A DNA stretch of 64,000 bases from Chitinophagaceae bacterium (lineage in GTDB: Bacteria; Bacteroidota; Bacteroidia; Chitinophagales; Chitinophagaceae), in NCBI GenBank assembly GCA_019745155.1, contig JAIETM010000008.1, positions 62,001-126,000 on the forward strand, read 5' to 3'. Position numbers and translations under genes: made by a program. Under the pieces are notes generated by a model. The model was not told the origin of the DNA and did no database searches. It saw only the letters and a list, made by a program, of their open reading frames with translations. Below are positions 29,752-37,347 of this stretch, one piece after another (position 1 is the first letter of the stretch; every line of letters begins with the position of its first letter).

Positions 29752-29876
29752 CATCTACGACGGATATCGTAAAACATCTGTTAATTTGCACCATTGGTGA
29801 ACTGACGAAACAACAGATTCGTTTAGTTTGTATTCGATAGGCATTCTATTTGATCAACCAGTATAAAAAGGAACAA

Positions 29877-31403
29877 ATGATGAAACTCAAAAACATTTTA
29901 GCAGTTGTAGCCATCAGCGCTGCCACCGCCATTTTGAGTGTTTGGGGCTATGGCAAATTGTATCAGACAAATTATGCGGGTGTACAAGACAGCGGAAAAC
30001 TGCCAGTAAACTATGCCGGATTCTTTGGCAATAACGGCAGTGCTGCAGCACCAGTAGATTTTACCACTGCGGCAGGTACAAGTACACCGGCAGTAGTACA
30101 CATTAAAACAAGAACAAAGGCAAAACAAGTTGCCAATAACCAACAAAGAAGATCTAACCCATTCGGTGATTTGTTTGAGGATGATTTCTTTGATGATTTC
30201 TTCGGTGGTGGCCCACGCATTGTTCCTGAGCAGCGTGCAAGTGGTAGCGGTGTGATCATCACTGATGATGGTTTTATCGTAACCAATAACCACGTAGTAG
30301 CAGGCGCTGATGAAATCAATGTAACACTGCCAAACAAAAAACAATATAAAGCCAGTATCATCGGCACAGACCCAAGTACAGACTTAGCTGTGATCAAGAT
30401 TGAAGGCAAGGGCTTCCCTTATCTGGTTTATGGCAATAGTGATGATGTAAAACTGGGTCAATGGGTATTGGCCGTTGGTTATCCTTTGAATCTGGATGTA
30501 ACAGTTACTGCTGGTATTGTGAGTGCAAAAGCCAGAAGCATCAATATCAATGAAAGACAAAGTCAAACACCTGTTGAATCTTTCATTCAAACTGATGCAG
30601 CGGTAAACCCAGGTAATAGTGGTGGTGCTTTGATCAACACGAATGGCGAGTTAATTGGTATTAACTCAGCCATTGCTTCACCAACAGGTTCTTATGCCGG
30701 TGTTTCTTATGCCATTCCCGTGAATATTGCCAAGAAAGTAATCACCGATATTGTAAAATATGGAACAGTTCAGCGTGCTTTCTTGGGCGTAAGCTATCCT
30801 AGAGAAACTTTAGATGATCGTTCTGAAAAAGAATTAGACAACCAATTTGGTGCTGCATGGCGTACTAGTGAAGGTGTATTCCTCACCGATATCCTTGCAT
30901 CTGGTGCAGCCGAAGCCGCAGGTCTCCGCAAGAAAGACGTGATTACCAAAATCAATGGTGTTGCAGTGAAGACCGGACCAGAATTGCAGGATCAGATTGC
31001 TCGTTATAAGCCTGGTGATAAAATCACCATCACCTACAAGCGTGAGGGTAAAGAAAGTACTACCAACCTTACACTGAAGAATAAGCTAGGCACCACGACT
31101 GTAGTGAAAACTGAAACTGCCTTCGAAAAATTAGGTGGTGAGTTTGAAACGATTGACAAAAAGATTGCTGCCGCAAATGATATTGCGGGCGGTGTAGTCG
31201 TGAAGAAAATTGGCAATGGTGCTTTGAAGAATTCCAGAATGCAAGAAGGCTTTGTGGTAACTTCTGTGAATGGAAACGAAATCAAAAATCTGGATGATCT
31301 AAAAGCTGCCTTGAAAGATGCCAACGGCACTATTTTCTTTGAAGGTATTTATCCGGGTTATGCTGAATCTTATCGTTACCCTATCAGATTAAGTGAGAAT
31401 TAA
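29877..31403 (+). CDS. Periplasmic serine protease, Do/DegQ (HtrA) family
   Basis: HtrA proteases degrade misfolded envelope proteins. The 508-residue protein has a signal/anchor sequence (KNILAVVAISAATAILSVW), a trypsin-like domain with the catalytic triad His139 (TNNHVV), Asp169 (DPSTDLAVI) and Ser248 (NPGNSGGALI), then two PDZ domains (about 290-390 and 410-508). A low-complexity Asp/Phe/Gly linker (DLFEDDFFDDFFGGG) lies before the protease domain. The start at 29877 (with a second ATG at 29880) is chosen over a TTG 27 bases upstream. The number of PDZ domains and length match the DegP/DegQ type. Confidence 0.93.
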   Translation: MMKLKNILAVVAISAATAILSVWGYGKLYQTNYAGVQDSGKLPVNYAGFFGNNGSAAAPVDFTTAAGTSTPAVVHIKTRTKAKQVANNQQRRSNPFGDLFEDDFFDDFFGGGPRIVPEQRASGSGVIITDDGFIVTNNHVVAGADEINVTLPNKKQYKASIIGTDPSTDLAVIKIEGKGFPYLVYGNSDDVKLGQWVLAVGYPLNLDVTVTAGIVSAKARSININERQSQTPVESFIQTDAAVNPGNSGGALINTNGELIGINSAIASPTGSYAGVSYAIPVNIAKKVITDIVKYGTVQRAFLGVSYPRETLDDRSEKELDNQFGAAWRTSEGVFLTDILASGAAEAAGLRKKDVITKINGVAVKTGPELQDQIARYKPGDKITITYKREGKESTTNLTLKNKLGTTTVVKTETAFEKLGGEFETIDKKIAAANDIAGGVVVKKIGNGALKNSRMQEGFVVTSVNGNEIKNLDDLKAALKDANGTIFFEGIYPGYAESYRYPIRLSEN

Positions 31404-31421: not shown

Positions 31422-31452
31422 AAAAAGGCTTCCAAATGGAAGCCTTTTTTTT
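31422..31452. terminator. Bidirectional terminator between the HtrA and GH13 genes
   Basis: A 12-bp perfect stem (AAAAAGGCTTCC 31422-31433 with GGAAGCCTTTTT 31438-31449, loop AAAT) with an A-run on one side and T-run on the other. It serves both convergent genes. Confidence 0.92.
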
Positions 31453-32710
31453 ATGCGCTAACATAAACAATAGCTTCATAAGCTTGCAGCTCAAATACAT
31501 TCTCCGTTTTGAAAGCATATTGCAATCCAGAAGACAAACTCCGGAAATCACCCCTTACCCACTCATGCGACACAGATACATGTAATCTTGCTTCACTTGA
31601 TAAGTTGAGCAACACAAGTACAATTTTCCCCTTATTGCGTCGTAAATAAGCCAGTACATGCGGATGCGATACAGGCAAGACAAAAGTTTCTGCTTCCTGC
31701 AAACCTCCTTCTTTTCTTAAATCAAGCAATCGACAATACCAATCCTGTAATGCAGGCCGGTCATTCCACTCAATCAGGTCTTTATCAAAAAATGCCAAGC
31801 GCTTAAGGTTAGGCAATTCTTGTCCGCTATACACCAAGGGCACACCCTTCCACGTAGCAGTAAAGACAGACCAGGGCAATGCTGCGCGACCATATTTTTC
31901 ATACTCAGTGCCATTCCAACTATTTTCATCATGGTTACTGGTAAAGAATAATTTGTGTGCGCCTGCGGGATACTGACTATAGCTATGCAGTACTTGTTGT
32001 ATCGATTGTACATCAACTTCACCCTTTGCATACTTTTCTGTTGTATGCATCCAATGCCAGGCATAGCTCAAATCAAATACCTGATGATAGTCGATTACCT
32101 CACATTCAGCTAACCAGAATAAATGCTTGATTGCATCACACGCTTTTCTAGCTTCCTTCCAAAAATCAAGTGGCACCAAATGCGCCATATCGCAACGGAA
32201 TCCATCTATGCCGGTTTCTTTCACCCAAAACTGCATGGCTGCTATCATAGCAGCACGCATTGCTTTGTTTGAATAATCCAAATCAATTACATCATGCCAG
32301 CCGTTTTTCTCTGTAAAATTCCCCTCCTCATCTAGCACATACCAATCCGGATGTTCTTTGGTCCAATGATGATCCCAGCCAGAATGGTTGGCCACCCAAT
32401 CAATGATCACATACATGCCTTGCGCATGAATAGCTTGAACTAATTGTTTGAAATCATCTAGATCACCATACTCAGGATTGATCGCTGTATAGCTGCTACA
32501 TGCATAATAACTACCTAAGGTTCCCTGCCTTACGGCTTCACTAATAGGTGTGATCGGCATTAGCCAAAGTATTTCCACACCCATGGATTTTAACCTGGGC
32601 AAATGTTTTGCAAAAGCAGCAAAACTACCTTCAGGCGTATACTGCCTGATATTGACTTCATAAATATTTGTATCACGCGCCCAAGAAACGAGCGGAAATT
32701 CGATTGCCAT
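31451..32710 (-). CDS. Alpha-amylase family glycoside hydrolase (GH13)
   Basis: The 419-residue enzyme has the GH13 regions: DWVANH (104-109, region I), GFRCDMAH with nucleophile Asp174 (region II), a glutamate in LAECEV (region III acid/base, about 203-206) and TSNHDENSW (region IV). No signal peptide is seen, so it should be cytosolic and act on short malto-oligosaccharides or similar. It starts 59 bases after the stop of the symporter gene on the same strand and might be co-transcribed with it. Subfamily and product (amylase, glucosidase or trehalose-type) cannot be chosen from motifs alone. Confidence 0.88.
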   Translation of the reverse strand: MAIEFPLVSWARDTNIYEVNIRQYTPEGSFAAFAKHLPRLKSMGVEILWLMPITPISEAVRQGTLGSYYACSSYTAINPEYGDLDDFKQLVQAIHAQGMYVIIDWVANHSGWDHHWTKEHPDWYVLDEEGNFTEKNGWHDVIDLDYSNKAMRAAMIAAMQFWVKETGIDGFRCDMAHLVPLDFWKEARKACDAIKHLFWLAECEVIDYHQVFDLSYAWHWMHTTEKYAKGEVDVQSIQQVLHSYSQYPAGAHKLFFTSNHDENSWNGTEYEKYGRAALPWSVFTATWKGVPLVYSGQELPNLKRLAFFDKDLIEWNDRPALQDWYCRLLDLRKEGGLQEAETFVLPVSHPHVLAYLRRNKGKIVLVLLNLSSEARLHVSVSHEWVRGDFRSLSSGLQYAFKTENVFELQAYEAIVYVSA

Positions 32711-32769: not shown

Positions 32770-34485
32770 TTACTGTGCAGTAATCGGTTTGCGGAATAAA
32801 GGCTGTAAGATGATCGCCAATACCACTACAGCAATGGCCCCAACCACATTGAGCCAGAGGAATCCGAGGCCGATAATATTGTAGCGATCTAACAAGAAAC
32901 AAGCAATCACCAGTAATTCACCAATCACCGCCGCCCAAAAAACAGCATTACCCTGTACTTTCTTCAAATAAAAAGCAACCAAGAAAATACCAAGAATCAC
33001 TCCGTAGAATAAAGAGCCTAATACATTAACCGCTTCAATCAAGCTACCCATGCCTTTAGCAAACTCAGCGGTGATGACGCAAAATACACCCCAGAAAAAA
33101 GTAAGCCATTTAGACATGCGGTATTGTGCTTCATCACTTGCACCATTAGTATTGTTTTTTTTGAAGCGTAAGTAGAAATCAACCATGGTACATGATGCCA
33201 ATGAGTTCAATGCAGCGGCAATGGAGCCCCAAGCAGCCAAGAAGATAATAGCAATTAATAATCCAACTAATCCAACCGGCAAGTGATCAATCACGAATCG
33301 AAGGAAAATGTAATTGGTATCATTTGTGTCCGCATCAGGCACCGCATCTTTGATGGTTGCTTTGTATTGTTTTTGCAAAGACTGCATCTCTTCCGTATAG
33401 GGCTTCACCAAATCACTACTCACCTGCTCTTTGGCATGAAGTTTTTCGAGCGTAGTAGTTTCTAATGCTTGTCGCTTTTGTTCATACTGCGCAGATAGGT
33501 GCATCAGTTGCTCTTTGGCTGGGGTTTGCAATGCCCTCGCTTCAACAGATTGGTTATAGAAAATAGGTGCTTGATGAAACTGGTAAAAAGTAAACAACAA
33601 GGCGCCCAATAATAAAATAAAGAATTGCATGGGCACTTTCACCAATCCATTCATCAGCAATCCCATGCGGCTTTCTGTGAGATTTTTTGCCGTTAGATAC
33701 CTGCCCACCTGACTCTGATCTGTTCCAAAATAAGAGAGGGCTAAAAAGAAACCACCAATGGTACCGCTAATAAGGTTATAACGATCTTTCCAATCAAAAC
33801 CTGAATCTGTAACACCTGTTGTTATCACGTTCATCTTACCGGCAGCTCCGCTAATTTTCAATGCATCCCAAAAACCCATATTGGCCGGCAGTAAATGCAC
33901 AATCATGTAACCAGCTAAAAACATGCCCACAAAAATGATGATCAACTGAAGCTGCTGCGTATATGCTACAGCACGTGCACCACCGCTTACTGTATAAATA
34001 ATCAAGAGACCGCCCATGACGATATTGGTCCAGAATATATCCCACCCCATCAAAGAAGAGAGAATAATAGAAGGCGCGTAAATACTGATGCCAGTAGATA
34101 GTCCACGAGAGATCAAAAAAAGTAAAGAGGTAAAAGTCCTAGTCTTGTTATCGAATCTTTGCTCCAGGTATTCATACGCAGTATACACTTTCAACCGATG
34201 AAACATCGGCACAAAAGTGATGCATAACACCACCATGGCTATTGGCAGACCAAAGTAATACTGTACAAAGCGCATTCCATCAGTAAATGCTTGTCCGGGT
34301 GCTGATAAGAAAGTAATGGCACTTGCCTGAGTACCCATAATGCTTAATAATACTAGGTACCAAGGCAATGAGCGATTGCTTAAGAAATAGCCATCAAGAT
34401 TTCTGCTGGTCTTGCTTTTGTACAAGCCATACGTAATGATACCAGTTAGGGTCAATATCAGTATGATCCAATCTATTTGACTCAT
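32770..34485 (-). CDS. Sodium:solute symporter (SSS family)
   Basis: The protein, 571 residues, has about 12-14 membrane segments with the LeuT-fold pattern of this family. A characteristic part is GGARAVAYTQQLQLIIIF and RNLDGYFLSNRSLPW; the loop with many Lys/Gln/Glu (about 340-400) is cytoplasmic. The chosen start MSQIDW at 34485 overlaps the preceding 46-residue gene by 4 bases (ATGA), showing tight coupling. Na+-driven import is the family role; the substrate (sugar, amino acid or organic acid) is not determined. It belongs to an operon with a deacetylase and two small membrane proteins. Confidence 0.88.
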   Translation of the reverse strand: MSQIDWIILILTLTGIITYGLYKSKTSRNLDGYFLSNRSLPWYLVLLSIMGTQASAITFLSAPGQAFTDGMRFVQYYFGLPIAMVVLCITFVPMFHRLKVYTAYEYLEQRFDNKTRTFTSLLFLISRGLSTGISIYAPSIILSSLMGWDIFWTNIVMGGLLIIYTVSGGARAVAYTQQLQLIIIFVGMFLAGYMIVHLLPANMGFWDALKISGAAGKMNVITTGVTDSGFDWKDRYNLISGTIGGFFLALSYFGTDQSQVGRYLTAKNLTESRMGLLMNGLVKVPMQFFILLLGALLFTFYQFHQAPIFYNQSVEARALQTPAKEQLMHLSAQYEQKRQALETTTLEKLHAKEQVSSDLVKPYTEEMQSLQKQYKATIKDAVPDADTNDTNYIFLRFVIDHLPVGLVGLLIAIIFLAAWGSIAAALNSLASCTMVDFYLRFKKNNTNGASDEAQYRMSKWLTFFWGVFCVITAEFAKGMGSLIEAVNVLGSLFYGVILGIFLVAFYLKKVQGNAVFWAAVIGELLVIACFLLDRYNIIGLGFLWLNVVGAIAVVVLAIILQPLFRKPITAQ

Positions 34486-34622
34486 GAAAAACGAGCAGTC
34501 AGTAATTGAAAGAGGATAATTTCCAGCAATAACATCAACAACACAAACCAGTACCAATGCTTCCATTGACGAAACATAGGCACTTGATCTTGACGGTTCT
34601 GTTCTTGATGTATCTCCTGCAT
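34482..34622 (-). CDS. Small single-span membrane protein (46 aa) coupled to the symporter
   Basis: The reading frame from ATG at 34622 to TGA at 34482 encodes 46 residues: a polar, glutamine-rich head (MQEIHQEQNRQDQVP), then one hydrophobic segment (about 22-42, with WYWFVLLMLLLEIILFQLL) ending near RFS. The stop codon shares ATGA with the symporter start, so translation is probably coupled. It is too short for standard ORF finders. Small membrane proteins are known beside other SSS transporters (the YjcH-ActP and YhdT-PanF pairs), which supports an accessory role; this is inference. No homology was recognised. Confidence 0.72.
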   Translation of the reverse strand: MQEIHQEQNRQDQVPMFRQWKHWYWFVLLMLLLEIILFQLLTARFS

Positions 34623-34631
34623 ATTAATGAT

Positions 34632-34787
34632 TTATGAGGACTTATTAGAATTCCCTAACAAACCGCCTGCTAGTAAACCCAAGACAAGACCTGCGATTAA
34701 TCCTACACGCATATTCTTCAATAGTAAACCAGCTACTACAGCAATCAGGATAATGAGTCCGGCAGTAATTTTTCTACGCTGATGCAT
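34632..34787 (-). CDS. Small two-span membrane protein (51 aa)
   Basis: ATG at 34787 and stop TAA at 34632 define 51 residues: MHQRRK, a first span (about 8-24, rich in Ile/Val/Leu), a short loop (KNMR), a second span (about 27-45) rich in glycine and leucine, and a polar tail (NSNKSS). The ATG overlaps the stop of the deacetylase gene in the arrangement TAATG, a sign of coupled translation. The next small gene begins 9 bases after its stop. Too short for most ORF callers, but the coding layout and the hydrophobic pattern make it real with fair confidence. Function unknown. Confidence 0.72.
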   Translation of the reverse strand: MHQRRKITAGLIILIAVVAGLLLKNMRVGLIAGLVLGLLAGGLLGNSNKSS

Positions 34788-37246
34788 TATTTGTTCTTTG
34801 GTAAGGCGATCAAGTTAGCCATTAATCGATAAGCACCGGGCACACCTGCAGGTAGTTCACGGAAAAATACAAGTCCGGTATACACGAAATTTCCTTTGCC
34901 ATAAGGTGCGATAATCAAGCTACCGTTATTTTCTTTTTCACCTTGATCGTTCATTCCCAAAGGTGCAGCAAATGCCGGATCGATTCCTTCGGCATGATAG
35001 ATACTACGTTCCTGAATCCAGCCTTCAAAATCTTTGGCAGTAATTTTATTAGGTGTATTCAATACAGGATGTTCCGGCAGCAAAAACTTCACAGTAGCAT
35101 CTTCTTCTGTTACACGTGTTCTGGTAATGGTAAATGGAAAAGGACCAATCTTGGCCTTTACCGGACCAATTTGGTTATTGGTGTTGTATTGCACAATGAG
35201 GTTACCACCCTGTTGGATATAAGCCATTAACGCATCATATTTTGCACTCAGGTACTCATGAATATTGTATGCTCTAACACCTGTAATAATGGCGTCTAAG
35301 CCATTGAGTACGGCTGGTGTAAAATCATCCTCATGCAACACTTTCACTTCATAACCCATTTGCTCCAGCGCCTGTGGCAACTTATCACCTGCGCCCGCTA
35401 TATAGCCAATCTTTTTACCCTTGGTCATCATGTCTACTTTAGACAATCGTGTTTGTGCAGGCTGTGTATAGTAAATCAAGGGGATATGATCATACGCAAT
35501 GGTTCTACCCTTCTGGTTAGACAAATTATTTGACCACAAAACAGAAGCAGCAAGCATCGGCTCGGCAGCAAGCTGCTTATCTAATGTTACTGTTATACTG
35601 CGTTGCTCCCCCGCTTTAAGGCTACCCAATACAACCAGTTGTTCCGATTTACCTGCGGCCAAAGTCAATTGTACACCATCAATAGCTGAATTACTATTAG
35701 ACACAATATTCAGTTGCAACTGTGGCATTTTACCATTGACCAGATAAGCATCACTTTTAAAACTAATTTCAACAGCAGGTTTGATGTATAAAGGTTGATA
35801 CAACTCTCCTTTCACAGGATCTGTAAACTTATAACGAATAGGTTTGGTGATACGCATGGGCACACCGTTGATGCTTAGTTCAAACACCACACTATTCAGC
35901 GATACATTCTCTGCATCACCAATCAGTTGCTGATCATCTATTTGGAACATGCCTTTGTTTAAAGGCTTCTGCAACCAATATGGCTGCGTAGATTGGTATT
36001 GCTGTGTAACTGTTGCCGTACGCGTAAACTGCCAATTCCTATTGGCACCGAGTGTTTGATTGACTACAGAATCCTTATCTGCAAAACGCAGTCTTTGTAT
36101 TTGCACCTGTACGCCTGTTCTAGCCAAACCCCAAACTTGTGTTCGAAATTGTTCACCAACCACTACTTCACCTTGGTTGCTTGTTGCTTCTAAAAACAAA
36201 CCACTTGCTACTTCAATCAATTGCGCAAGTTCTTTCAACTTTTGATTTTTCCAATAACTATCGGGTTGTTGCTGTAATTGCTGATAGATATCCAATAAAG
36301 CAGGTACCGATTTCTCGGGCGATTGTACTTCAAACTGCGATAAGATACGCTGTACTTTTTCTGCAATGCCAGTTCCATTAGCTTCTCTGCTCCATGTTGT
36401 ATTAACGCCATCCATAATATCATTCACAGCAGGTTCACCGCCCGTTAAAACAAAATATTCATAACTCTGTCCGCGACCGCGTGGCACACCAAATCCCTGG
36501 CTTTTGTGCTGACTTCTACTCTCGCTCGCCACTTCACCATAACTTTCTCCTGTTACAGGATTGTACACACCCACATCAATTTTTAGCTGATTATCGGATG
36601 TTGTATTGTTGCCACCGAAATTGAACGTATTCCAGAAAATGCGTTTAGCCTGCCAAACCGAAACACCCATTTTTAACTGTTCAGGAAAAGCATTAGGATC
36701 TCCAGCTAACTTAAACGCTTCATTAGCCAATAATGCGGATGACCAGTGATGACCGTGACCTGCACGAGCGTCTCCGGGAAATCTAGTGATGATTACATCG
36801 GGTCTGAGTTTTCTGATTACCCAAACCACATCAGCCAATACTTTTTGCTTATCCCAAATACGCAGTGTTTCGTCTGCCGTTTTTGAAAAGCCAAAATCAT
36901 ACGCTCGTGTAAAAAATTGCTCTGCACCATCTACTCTGCGCGCGGCCAATAATTCCTGTGTTCTGATCAGGCCAAGCTCTACCCCTTGCTCATCGCCAAT
37001 CAGGTTTTGTCCCCCATCCCCTCTGGTTAAACTTAGGTAACCAGTTCTGTATTGACGTTCTCTCGCCAGATATGCCAGCAAACGGGTATTCTCATCATCA
37101 GGATGTGCAGCGATGTATAACACACTGCCCAGCACCTGTAATTTCTTAACCTGCTGATAGATTTCAGCAGCAGAATAACCTACAGGCTTTTGCGCGAATA
37201 CATTTAGGTGCAGCAGTAAAACAAATCCAAGAAGCAGTTTTCTCAC
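34787..37246 (-). CDS. Secreted PIG-L (LmbE-like) deacetylase with a C-terminal amidotransferase-like domain
   Basis: PIG-L/LmbE proteins remove acetyl groups from N-acetylglucosaminyl compounds using zinc. The 819 residues begin with a signal peptide (MRKLLLGFVLLLHLNVFAQ). The N-terminal domain (about 40-290) has AAHPDDE at 46-52 and RAGHGHHWSS, the metal and catalytic residues. A beta-rich middle follows, and a C-terminal domain (about 620-800) with GYIAGAGDKLPQALEQMGY and GLDAIITGVRAYN resembles a class I glutamine-amidotransferase/ThuA fold without an evident catalytic Cys. It leads the operon with two small membrane proteins and an SSS transporter. The real substrate is unknown; a glycan or thiol conjugate is possible. 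Confidence 0.82.
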   Translation of the reverse strand: MRKLLLGFVLLLHLNVFAQKPVGYSAAEIYQQVKKLQVLGSVLYIAAHPDDENTRLLAYLARERQYRTGYLSLTRGDGGQNLIGDEQGVELGLIRTQELLAARRVDGAEQFFTRAYDFGFSKTADETLRIWDKQKVLADVVWVIRKLRPDVIITRFPGDARAGHGHHWSSALLANEAFKLAGDPNAFPEQLKMGVSVWQAKRIFWNTFNFGGNNTTSDNQLKIDVGVYNPVTGESYGEVASESRSQHKSQGFGVPRGRGQSYEYFVLTGGEPAVNDIMDGVNTTWSREANGTGIAEKVQRILSQFEVQSPEKSVPALLDIYQQLQQQPDSYWKNQKLKELAQLIEVASGLFLEATSNQGEVVVGEQFRTQVWGLARTGVQVQIQRLRFADKDSVVNQTLGANRNWQFTRTATVTQQYQSTQPYWLQKPLNKGMFQIDDQQLIGDAENVSLNSVVFELSINGVPMRITKPIRYKFTDPVKGELYQPLYIKPAVEISFKSDAYLVNGKMPQLQLNIVSNSNSAIDGVQLTLAAGKSEQLVVLGSLKAGEQRSITVTLDKQLAAEPMLAASVLWSNNLSNQKGRTIAYDHIPLIYYTQPAQTRLSKVDMMTKGKKIGYIAGAGDKLPQALEQMGYEVKVLHEDDFTPAVLNGLDAIITGVRAYNIHEYLSAKYDALMAYIQQGGNLIVQYNTNNQIGPVKAKIGPFPFTITRTRVTEEDATVKFLLPEHPVLNTPNKITAKDFEGWIQERSIYHAEGIDPAFAAPLGMNDQGEKENNGSLIIAPYGKGNFVYTGLVFFRELPAGVPGAYRLMANLIALPKNK

Positions 37247-37302: not shown

Positions 37303-37330
37303 CAAAAAAGCGCCGCCAAGGCGACGCTTT
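37303..37330 (-). terminator. Intrinsic terminator after the M14 peptidase gene
   Basis: A stem AAAGCG/CGCTTT (37307-37312, 37325-37330) continued by CGCC/GGCG with one mismatch between is followed by a T-run on the minus strand. It lies 18 bases after the stop of the gene at 37348. Confidence 0.8.
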
Positions 37331-37347
37331 CAACTAATGTGATTAAA

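Follow-up and report, generated by a model that had tools for sequence, protein, structure and literature searches.

What are two short reading frames doing between the gene for a deacetylase and the gene for a membrane carrier? The question is raised by a window of 64,000 nt (the whole stretch that was analysed) from the 3.17-Mb genome of a Chitinophagaceae bacterium (GCA_019745155.1, contig JAIETM010000008.1, positions 62,001–126,000 of the forward strand). On its reverse strand, the gene for a PIG-L family deacetylase is followed by frames of 51 and 46 codons, here called S51 and S46, and then by the gene for a symporter of the SSS family, referred to below as the SSS. Both frames are conserved coding genes, and S46 is a phylum-wide small partner of a clade of SSS carriers, undescribed as far as the searches go. 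Encoded hard by the carrier gene and changing in step with it across the phylum, S46 is probably a small transporter subunit that has been overlooked. The best explanation overall, and a rather likely one, would make it a single-span subunit dedicated to the neighbouring SSS and leave S51 to go with PIG-L.

Both short frames proved to be under purifying selection. Pooled over disjoint pairs with 2–30% DNA divergence, the ratio of nonsynonymous to synonymous substitution rates (dN/dS) was 0.192 (0.162–0.225; 44 pairs) for S46 and 0.085 (0.065–0.105; 33 pairs) for S51, as against 1.0 and 1.8 (S46) and 1.2 and 3.0 (S51) for the same DNA shifted to the +1 and +2 frames. A first summary of distance-filtered pairs, with medians of 0.48 and 0.60, was replaced by these closer pairs because its filter had kept saturated pairs with underestimated dS. 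In the closest relative (locus L003 of genome G066), S51 is 96% identical and S46 just 65%, and the two small proteins thus evolve at very different rates.

The family set comprised 147 genomes of the window's family, 122 of which hold an SSS orthologue (E ≤ 1e-100), and the DNA around all 122 loci was read, the upstream stretch covered being 1.5 to 5 kb long, or shorter where a contig ended. An open reading frame (ORF) upstream of the SSS matched the S46 profile in 116 of these loci and the S51 profile in 87, the former count being one that favours this position because the family S46 profile was iterated on ORFs upstream of the SSS. Searches for S46 in a phylum sample of 395 genomes and for held-out loci covered whole genomes, with no requirement for SSS proximity. 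In the phylum sample, 90 of 115 matches at E ≤ 0.01, and 82 of 91 at E ≤ 1e-3, lie directly before an SSS gene. S46 likewise adjoins the SSS in all 79 held-out loci and in 54 of 55 non-family loci, a count from which L142 and L143 (whose family genomes were in the count before) and L192 and L196 (false matches in longer ORFs) had been dropped. The exception, L145 (G171), has S46 with the usual overlap, followed by an SSS frame broken after about 25 residues, either a decayed or a misassembled carrier. The first-pass annotation had argued that a layout of this kind is not what random ORFs would produce. Its description of the two overlaps and the short gap was exact on re-reading, and its argument is borne out by homologues in the same place, by the synonymous substitutions and by a 4-bp overlap of S46 with the SSS that recurs in 102 of the 116 family loci (93 by alignment start and nine with a candidate ATG at −4) and 71 of the 79 held-out ones.

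At greater distance the pairing can still be followed. An SSS at E ≤ 1e-100 occurs in 143 phylum genomes, with an adjacent S46 match in 89 and none in 54. When 30 of those 54 were read, 24 had a one-span ORF with its stop no more than 10 bp from the SSS start and one had such an ORF at 49 bp, and 18 upstream ORFs in these 30 loci matched the S46 profile at E < 0.01 (in a search set of only a few dozen ORFs). One genome, G431, holds two S46-SSS copies (L160 and L161) with identical S46, one of the SSS matches being shortened with an internal stop.

Covariation points to the carrier as well. A mean-field direct coupling analysis (DCA) was run on 248 paired S46–SSS sequences, 153 effective; some genomes occur twice among these rows, and similar rows share weight. 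The top pairs (S46 residue first) were 41–218 (z = 12.5), 41–220 (8.8), 28–85 (8.6), 28–82 (8.5), 41–295 (7.3) and 27–85 (7.0), the first of them about level with the best coupling within the SSS itself (12.3). As a control, S46 was coupled to the C-terminal part of PIG-L, where the top value was 6.9, as against 11.6 for S46–SSS on the same 216 rows. In one shuffle of the rows the top z was 7.6, elsewhere, and the key pairs lost rank; the pairs recur when family sequences alone are used, and of two random halves of the rows, one gives them back well. The common combinations at 41/218, F paired with L and either L or I paired with M, resemble an exchange of size. The SSS pairs 8–85, 82–203, 85–212 and 212–295 couple among themselves, and the predicted partners of S46 therefore form one patch.

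Two further comparisons bear on these pairs. In contrasts between phylogenetically disjoint sister pairs over 317 rows, the counts were 23:1 for 28L–82, 17:2 for 41F–218, 11:0 for 27V–85 and 17:3 for 28I–85, with the DCA partner ranking first of 571 SSS columns; in an earlier version with 248 rows, column 308 stood above 82 and 295 above 218. The held-out set was made from the 79 loci fetched by removing 10 rows at least 95% identical to a training row, at least one of which is a genome also present under a public name. In the remaining 69 sequences all six associations hold, with Fisher p values from 1.6e-8 to 1.5e-2 (41–218, 1.6e-8; 41–220, 3.6e-7; 28–82, 9.9e-5).

Evolution thus backs the subunit role well; contact, coupled translation (from the layout only), topology and a stabilising role are inferred along the following lines. 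S46 and the SSS would probably be made together by way of their overlapping stop and start codons. Because more K+R lies before the S46 span (mean 2.9, with D+E at 1.7) than after it (0.7), the protein probably inserts into the membrane N-in/C-out, which would bring residue 41 near SSS residues 218, 220 and 295. In the SSS model, TM3 (transmembrane helix 3) covers residues ~79–98, the TM6–TM7 loop 198–237 and TM8 269–303, with sidedness taken from the SSS fold; the geometry fits, as residue 41, at the periplasmic end, pairs with a loop on that same side of the membrane and with TM8 at its outer end. S46 would then pack on TM3 (82 and 85), its periplasmic end lying against the loop between TM6 and TM7 (218 and 220) and against the outermost part of TM8 (295), a site that faces the bundle in the LeuT-type fold. 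Most likely it would stabilise the SSS or aid its folding or membrane insertion, as has been proposed for MAP17 on SGLT2. If so, functional studies of this SSS clade ought to co-express S46.

Several points weigh against a subunit of this kind. The coupling analysis has only some 150 effective sequences, and in one random half (124 rows) 41–218 falls to rank 5 and the TM3 pairs are lost. Only 28–82 is significant in the sister-pair test after correction for 571 columns. The held-out Fisher tests ignore phylogeny, and the held-out sister pairs are small in number (41–218, 6:0; 41–220, 4:0; 41–295, 2:0; 28–82, 7:0; 28–85, 6:2; 27–85, 2:0). Nine of the 91 phylum matches at E ≤ 1e-3 do not stand before a strong SSS match: that of G171 with its broken SSS, two false matches (the second one of G173 and that of G458), and those of G170, G181, G197, G242, G413 and G235, which may precede other SSS paralogues, be solitary or be false. 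Moreover, five of 122 family loci have no S46 (L009, L082, L090 and L093, as well as L126, which is partial), and five of the 30 distant loci read (L391–393, L404 and L420) showed no candidate ahead of the SSS; some lineages thus do without it. A sixth family locus without a match, L053, ends at a contig edge where the tail of S46 is visible. Position 218 of the SSS is M in each of the five family carriers that lack S46, as against 58 of 248 carriers with S46, which may reflect ancestry rather than adaptation. Among 10 carriers without S46, residues 82, 85, 220 and 295 show no clear difference, in a sample too small to interpret.

The loss of S46 from family loci that retain the SSS is also what might be expected if S46 were a conditional regulator, an inhibitor or degradation adaptor like MgtS, MgtR or AcrZ, and not a constant subunit. 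Proteins of 28–55 amino acids are described as regulating transporters in this way in the passages available of one review (PMC10710835). The fixed overlap of S46 with its presumed target would, however, favour constant supply, and S46 is widespread with this SSS clade; a conditional regulator is therefore considered unlikely, though still worth weighing.

A bolder idea concerns the build of the carrier. The SSS matches PF00474 (E 5.7e-37; 128 bits against a cut-off of 22.8), and its model (predicted local distance difference test, pLDDT, 87) has 13 membrane helices by our own count. The closest solved fold is SiaT (5nv9; TM-score 0.83 by target length), the top matches being SiaT, SGLT2-MAP17, NIS, SMCT1 and vSGLT. 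A helical hairpin inserted between TM8 and TM9 (~312–381; pLDDT ~82–98) has no counterpart in the SiaT alignment. According to the sections available of PMC5931594, SiaT has its Na2 site at 342 and 343 and Na3 at 182, 345 and 346, and Na2 is found in 54.2% of PF00474 sequences and so is no family requirement. By our own reading of the SiaT alignment, 342 corresponds to G420, 343 to S421, 345/346 to A423/A424 and 182 to Q177 or Q178; across 54 sequences S421 never varies and G420 is kept in at least 90%. Na2 is thus half kept, with one serine, and Na3 is absent, so that sodium coupling of this SSS is not to be assumed.

Given these 13 helices, it is conceivable, if speculative and on balance improbable, that S46 is an ancient detached fourteenth helix, supplied in trans and docked N-in/C-out on the bundle side (SGLT TM2/TM7) of a 13-helix SSS without TM13. 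The helix would then be one that the sugar-transporting SSS carriers have in cis, the phylum-wide SSS clade would be a two-chain transporter, and a route to single-span subunits such as MAP17 would be suggested. No statement that TM13 lies next to TM2/TM7 in SGLT was found in the literature passages available, and no natural S46–SSS fusion was noticed among the loci read, in a search that was not exhaustive.

The dedicated-subunit proposal assigns S46 to the SSS and not to the deacetylase, and the genes do fall into two separable pairs, PIG-L with S51 and S46 with the SSS. The order of a four-gene unit described in the first-pass annotation therefore stands, although not its unity. Within the DNA fetched, PIG-L lies upstream of the SSS in 106 of the 122 family loci and 39 of the 55 non-family loci, and because of this a functional link between the two is likely; the SSS may import a product of the deacetylase, as the first-pass annotation suggested. 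It was not found within the 1.5–2.5 kb fetched in the other 16 non-family loci, and seven family genomes have S46-SSS with PIG-L elsewhere (G001, G026, G031, G089, G099, G101 and G125); an eighth, G079, was left unjudged, as its SSS contig ends too close. In family f24 (L177, L178, L181 and L188), S46-SSS follows a gene of ~220 codons, which we take to be WbqC-like, and not PIG-L, with a gltX-like gene (named by eye) further upstream. A role for S46 in the service of PIG-L, or of a complex handing over from PIG-L to the SSS, would explain how often the deacetylase stands upstream. With PIG-L missing or displaced at so many S46-SSS loci, and with the weaker coupling of S46 to the PIG-L C-terminal residues, such a role is quite improbable.

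S51, for its part, is a separate small membrane protein that belongs with the PIG-L deacetylase and is nearly confined to one family. Its profile matches in 97 of 147 family genomes and in only 16 of 395 phylum genomes (E ≤ 1e-4), 12 of the 16 being from the window's family. Nine family genomes have S51 away from the SSS, the latter being on another contig or below threshold, and in six of them S51 abuts PIG-L (G030, G043, G064, G107, G124 and G128); the remaining three have the two genes on separate contigs (G007 and G135) or far apart (G067). In a mixed case, L066, S51 stays by the SSS, 1.5 kb away from PIG-L. The idea that both microproteins act on the symporter was rejected, as S51 follows PIG-L in six of the nine informative genomes. 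The help for the symporter envisaged earlier is thus retained for S46, on position and covariation, and given up for S51.

The deacetylase carries a PIG-L domain at residues 43–176 (PF02585; E 5.7e-17; 62.9 bits against a cut-off of 28.2), preceded by a signal-peptide-like N terminus (by eye) and followed by a beta-rich middle and a C-terminal alpha/beta region. Its AHPDDE and GHGHH motifs are presumably metal-binding, and A47-H48-P49-D50-D51-E52, H164 and H167 are invariant in 65 sequences. The model (pLDDT 92) has as its nearest solved folds the diacetylchitobiose deacetylases, LnmX and BshB (~220–260 columns). Because of these folds and the invariant metal motifs, it is probably an active amino-sugar-type deacetylase. 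The fold is shared with those enzymes, but the window protein has ~500 extra residues and, from the signal read in its sequence, looks secreted.

The tight stop/start overlaps could conceivably have another purpose, in that the short frames might be translation devices, leader ORFs that load ribosomes and encode inert peptides. This is very improbable in view of the amino-acid-level constraint, with W20, Y24, L31 and T42 conserved in at least 90% of 83 S46 sequences, and of the S46–SSS residue covariation; furthermore, in the 14 of 116 family loci where the spacing to the SSS differs, the S46 protein stays recognisable. Chance open frames, which the short lengths and the many ORFs of more than 30 codons in the region might suggest, can practically be dismissed, being refuted by dN/dS and by conserved homologues across family and phylum.

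Neither S46 nor S51 appears to be described by Pfam or NCBIfam, which would make them two real gene families outside both. The sole Pfam match of the window S46 was PF17696 (E 0.046, under the cut-off), with none in NCBIfam at E ≤ 1, and none to DUF485, DUF997 or DUF3311 in either at E ≤ 1. Searches with 83 of the 116 family members gave scattered weak matches, none in more than eight members among the matches listed (25 families out of 63 in Pfam and 25 out of 40 in NCBIfam). The weak Pfam match of the window S46, to "Another-regulin" (E 0.046), and the PDB profile matches to photosystem II protein L (best E 0.022) were both taken as chance similarity between single-span peptides, and S46 is not recognisably related to S51 (hhalign probability 7.5%).

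Coordinates of the genes and sequence features of the locus (positions in the window)
Feature	Position	Strand	Remarks
Terminator-like hairpin, 11 pairs	37306..37331	-	between upstream peptidase-like gene and PIG-L; consensus scan only
PIG-L family deacetylase	34787..37246	-	819 aa; GTG start, TAA stop
TAATG, PIG-L stop and S51 start	34785..34789	-	read directly; A at 34787 common to both genes
S51	34632..34787	-	51 aa; glycine-rich protein, a hairpin of two spans; gene partnered with PIG-L
Intergenic gap S51/S46	34623-34631	-	9 bases
S46	34482..34622	-	46 aa; single span at ~residues 23-41; proposed small SSS subunit
ATGA, S46 stop and SSS start	34482..34485	-	read directly
SSS family symporter	32770..34485	-	571 aa; ATG at 34485

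The ORF lister places the SSS start further upstream, at 34566; the ATG in the table was used instead. Because a terminator-like hairpin separates the peptidase-like gene from PIG-L, the sequence suggests that the unit begins downstream of it; the region as a whole has eight such sites against 4.3 expected in shuffles (consensus scan). The spacing of PIG-L and S51, measured from the S51 start nearest the PIG-L stop, is −1 in seven of 86 family loci and between −8 and +10 in 57. On the 3′ side of the SSS lie a GH13-like gene (31451–32710) and a DegP/HtrA-like gene (29850–31403), both named by eye from sequence. Homologues of these occur in 46 and 35, respectively, of 80 loci kept from named relatives found via the SSS (flanks of up to 4.5 kb), which are Sediminibacterium and other Chitinophagaceae with SSS identities of up to 76% in the best segment.

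SSS carriers form a large family, and small membrane proteins are co-encoded with several of them, as in YjcH (DUF485) with ActP, YhdT with PanF and DUF3311 with MctP, all of which are longer than S46 and, unlike it, two-span. To our knowledge, the small bacterial partners of SSS carriers have two spans, and little is known of their mechanism. The two-span DUF4212 (PF13937) is likewise a short membrane protein found with SSS carriers; it has 79 model positions and, by eye, two spans, as against 46 amino acids for S46. At L445 (G780), a DUF4212 gene stands closely before an SSS-like start (by eye), and the same bacterial order thus also uses a known kind of SSS small subunit. The DUF4212 profile had no match in the window genome, and S46 as a DUF4212 was rejected (hhalign probability 0.65% against a two-sequence DUF4212 profile). 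With no Pfam or NCBIfam family fitting S46, the earlier finding of no homology to known small partners is upheld. The precedent drawn from YjcH and YhdT was overstated, since a word search of the main text of a 2021 review of prokaryotic SSS carriers gave neither name. No described PIG-L/SSS unit or small SSS partner of Bacteroidota was recognised among literature titles and abstract openings (subscription literature lying outside that scope), and a search for MetS-type subunits gave unrelated papers only.

Closer in size to S46 are AcrZ, MgtS and MgtU, which modulate or stabilise a transporter but act on other transporter superfamilies, according to the passages available (PMC10710835). The best-documented precedent found is MAP17 (PDZK1IP1) with human SGLT2 and SGLT1 (SLC5), where a separate single-span protein likewise accompanies a carrier of the SSS fold, although the S46 complex is only proposed, from covariation. 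MAP17 is longer and eukaryotic; S46 is likened to it as a way of working, without relatedness being implied. The fold comparison of the window SSS placed SGLT2-MAP17 entries among its nearest matches. The sections available of two studies (PMC10803289, PMC10203128) have MAP17 enhancing SGLT2 uptake, with a reported promotion of surface expression, and sitting on TM13, in the less mobile module, to which the bundle domain belongs, while differing in their accounts of its role. TM13 is absent from the window SSS model by our own count, and S46 is predicted to lie instead on TM3/TM8, which in our own mapping are TM2/TM7 of the SGLT numbering, in the bundle domain; the face differs from that of MAP17. 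With its one span, and covarying with named residues of its carrier, S46 would thus offer a testable bacterial counterpart to SGLT2-MAP17.

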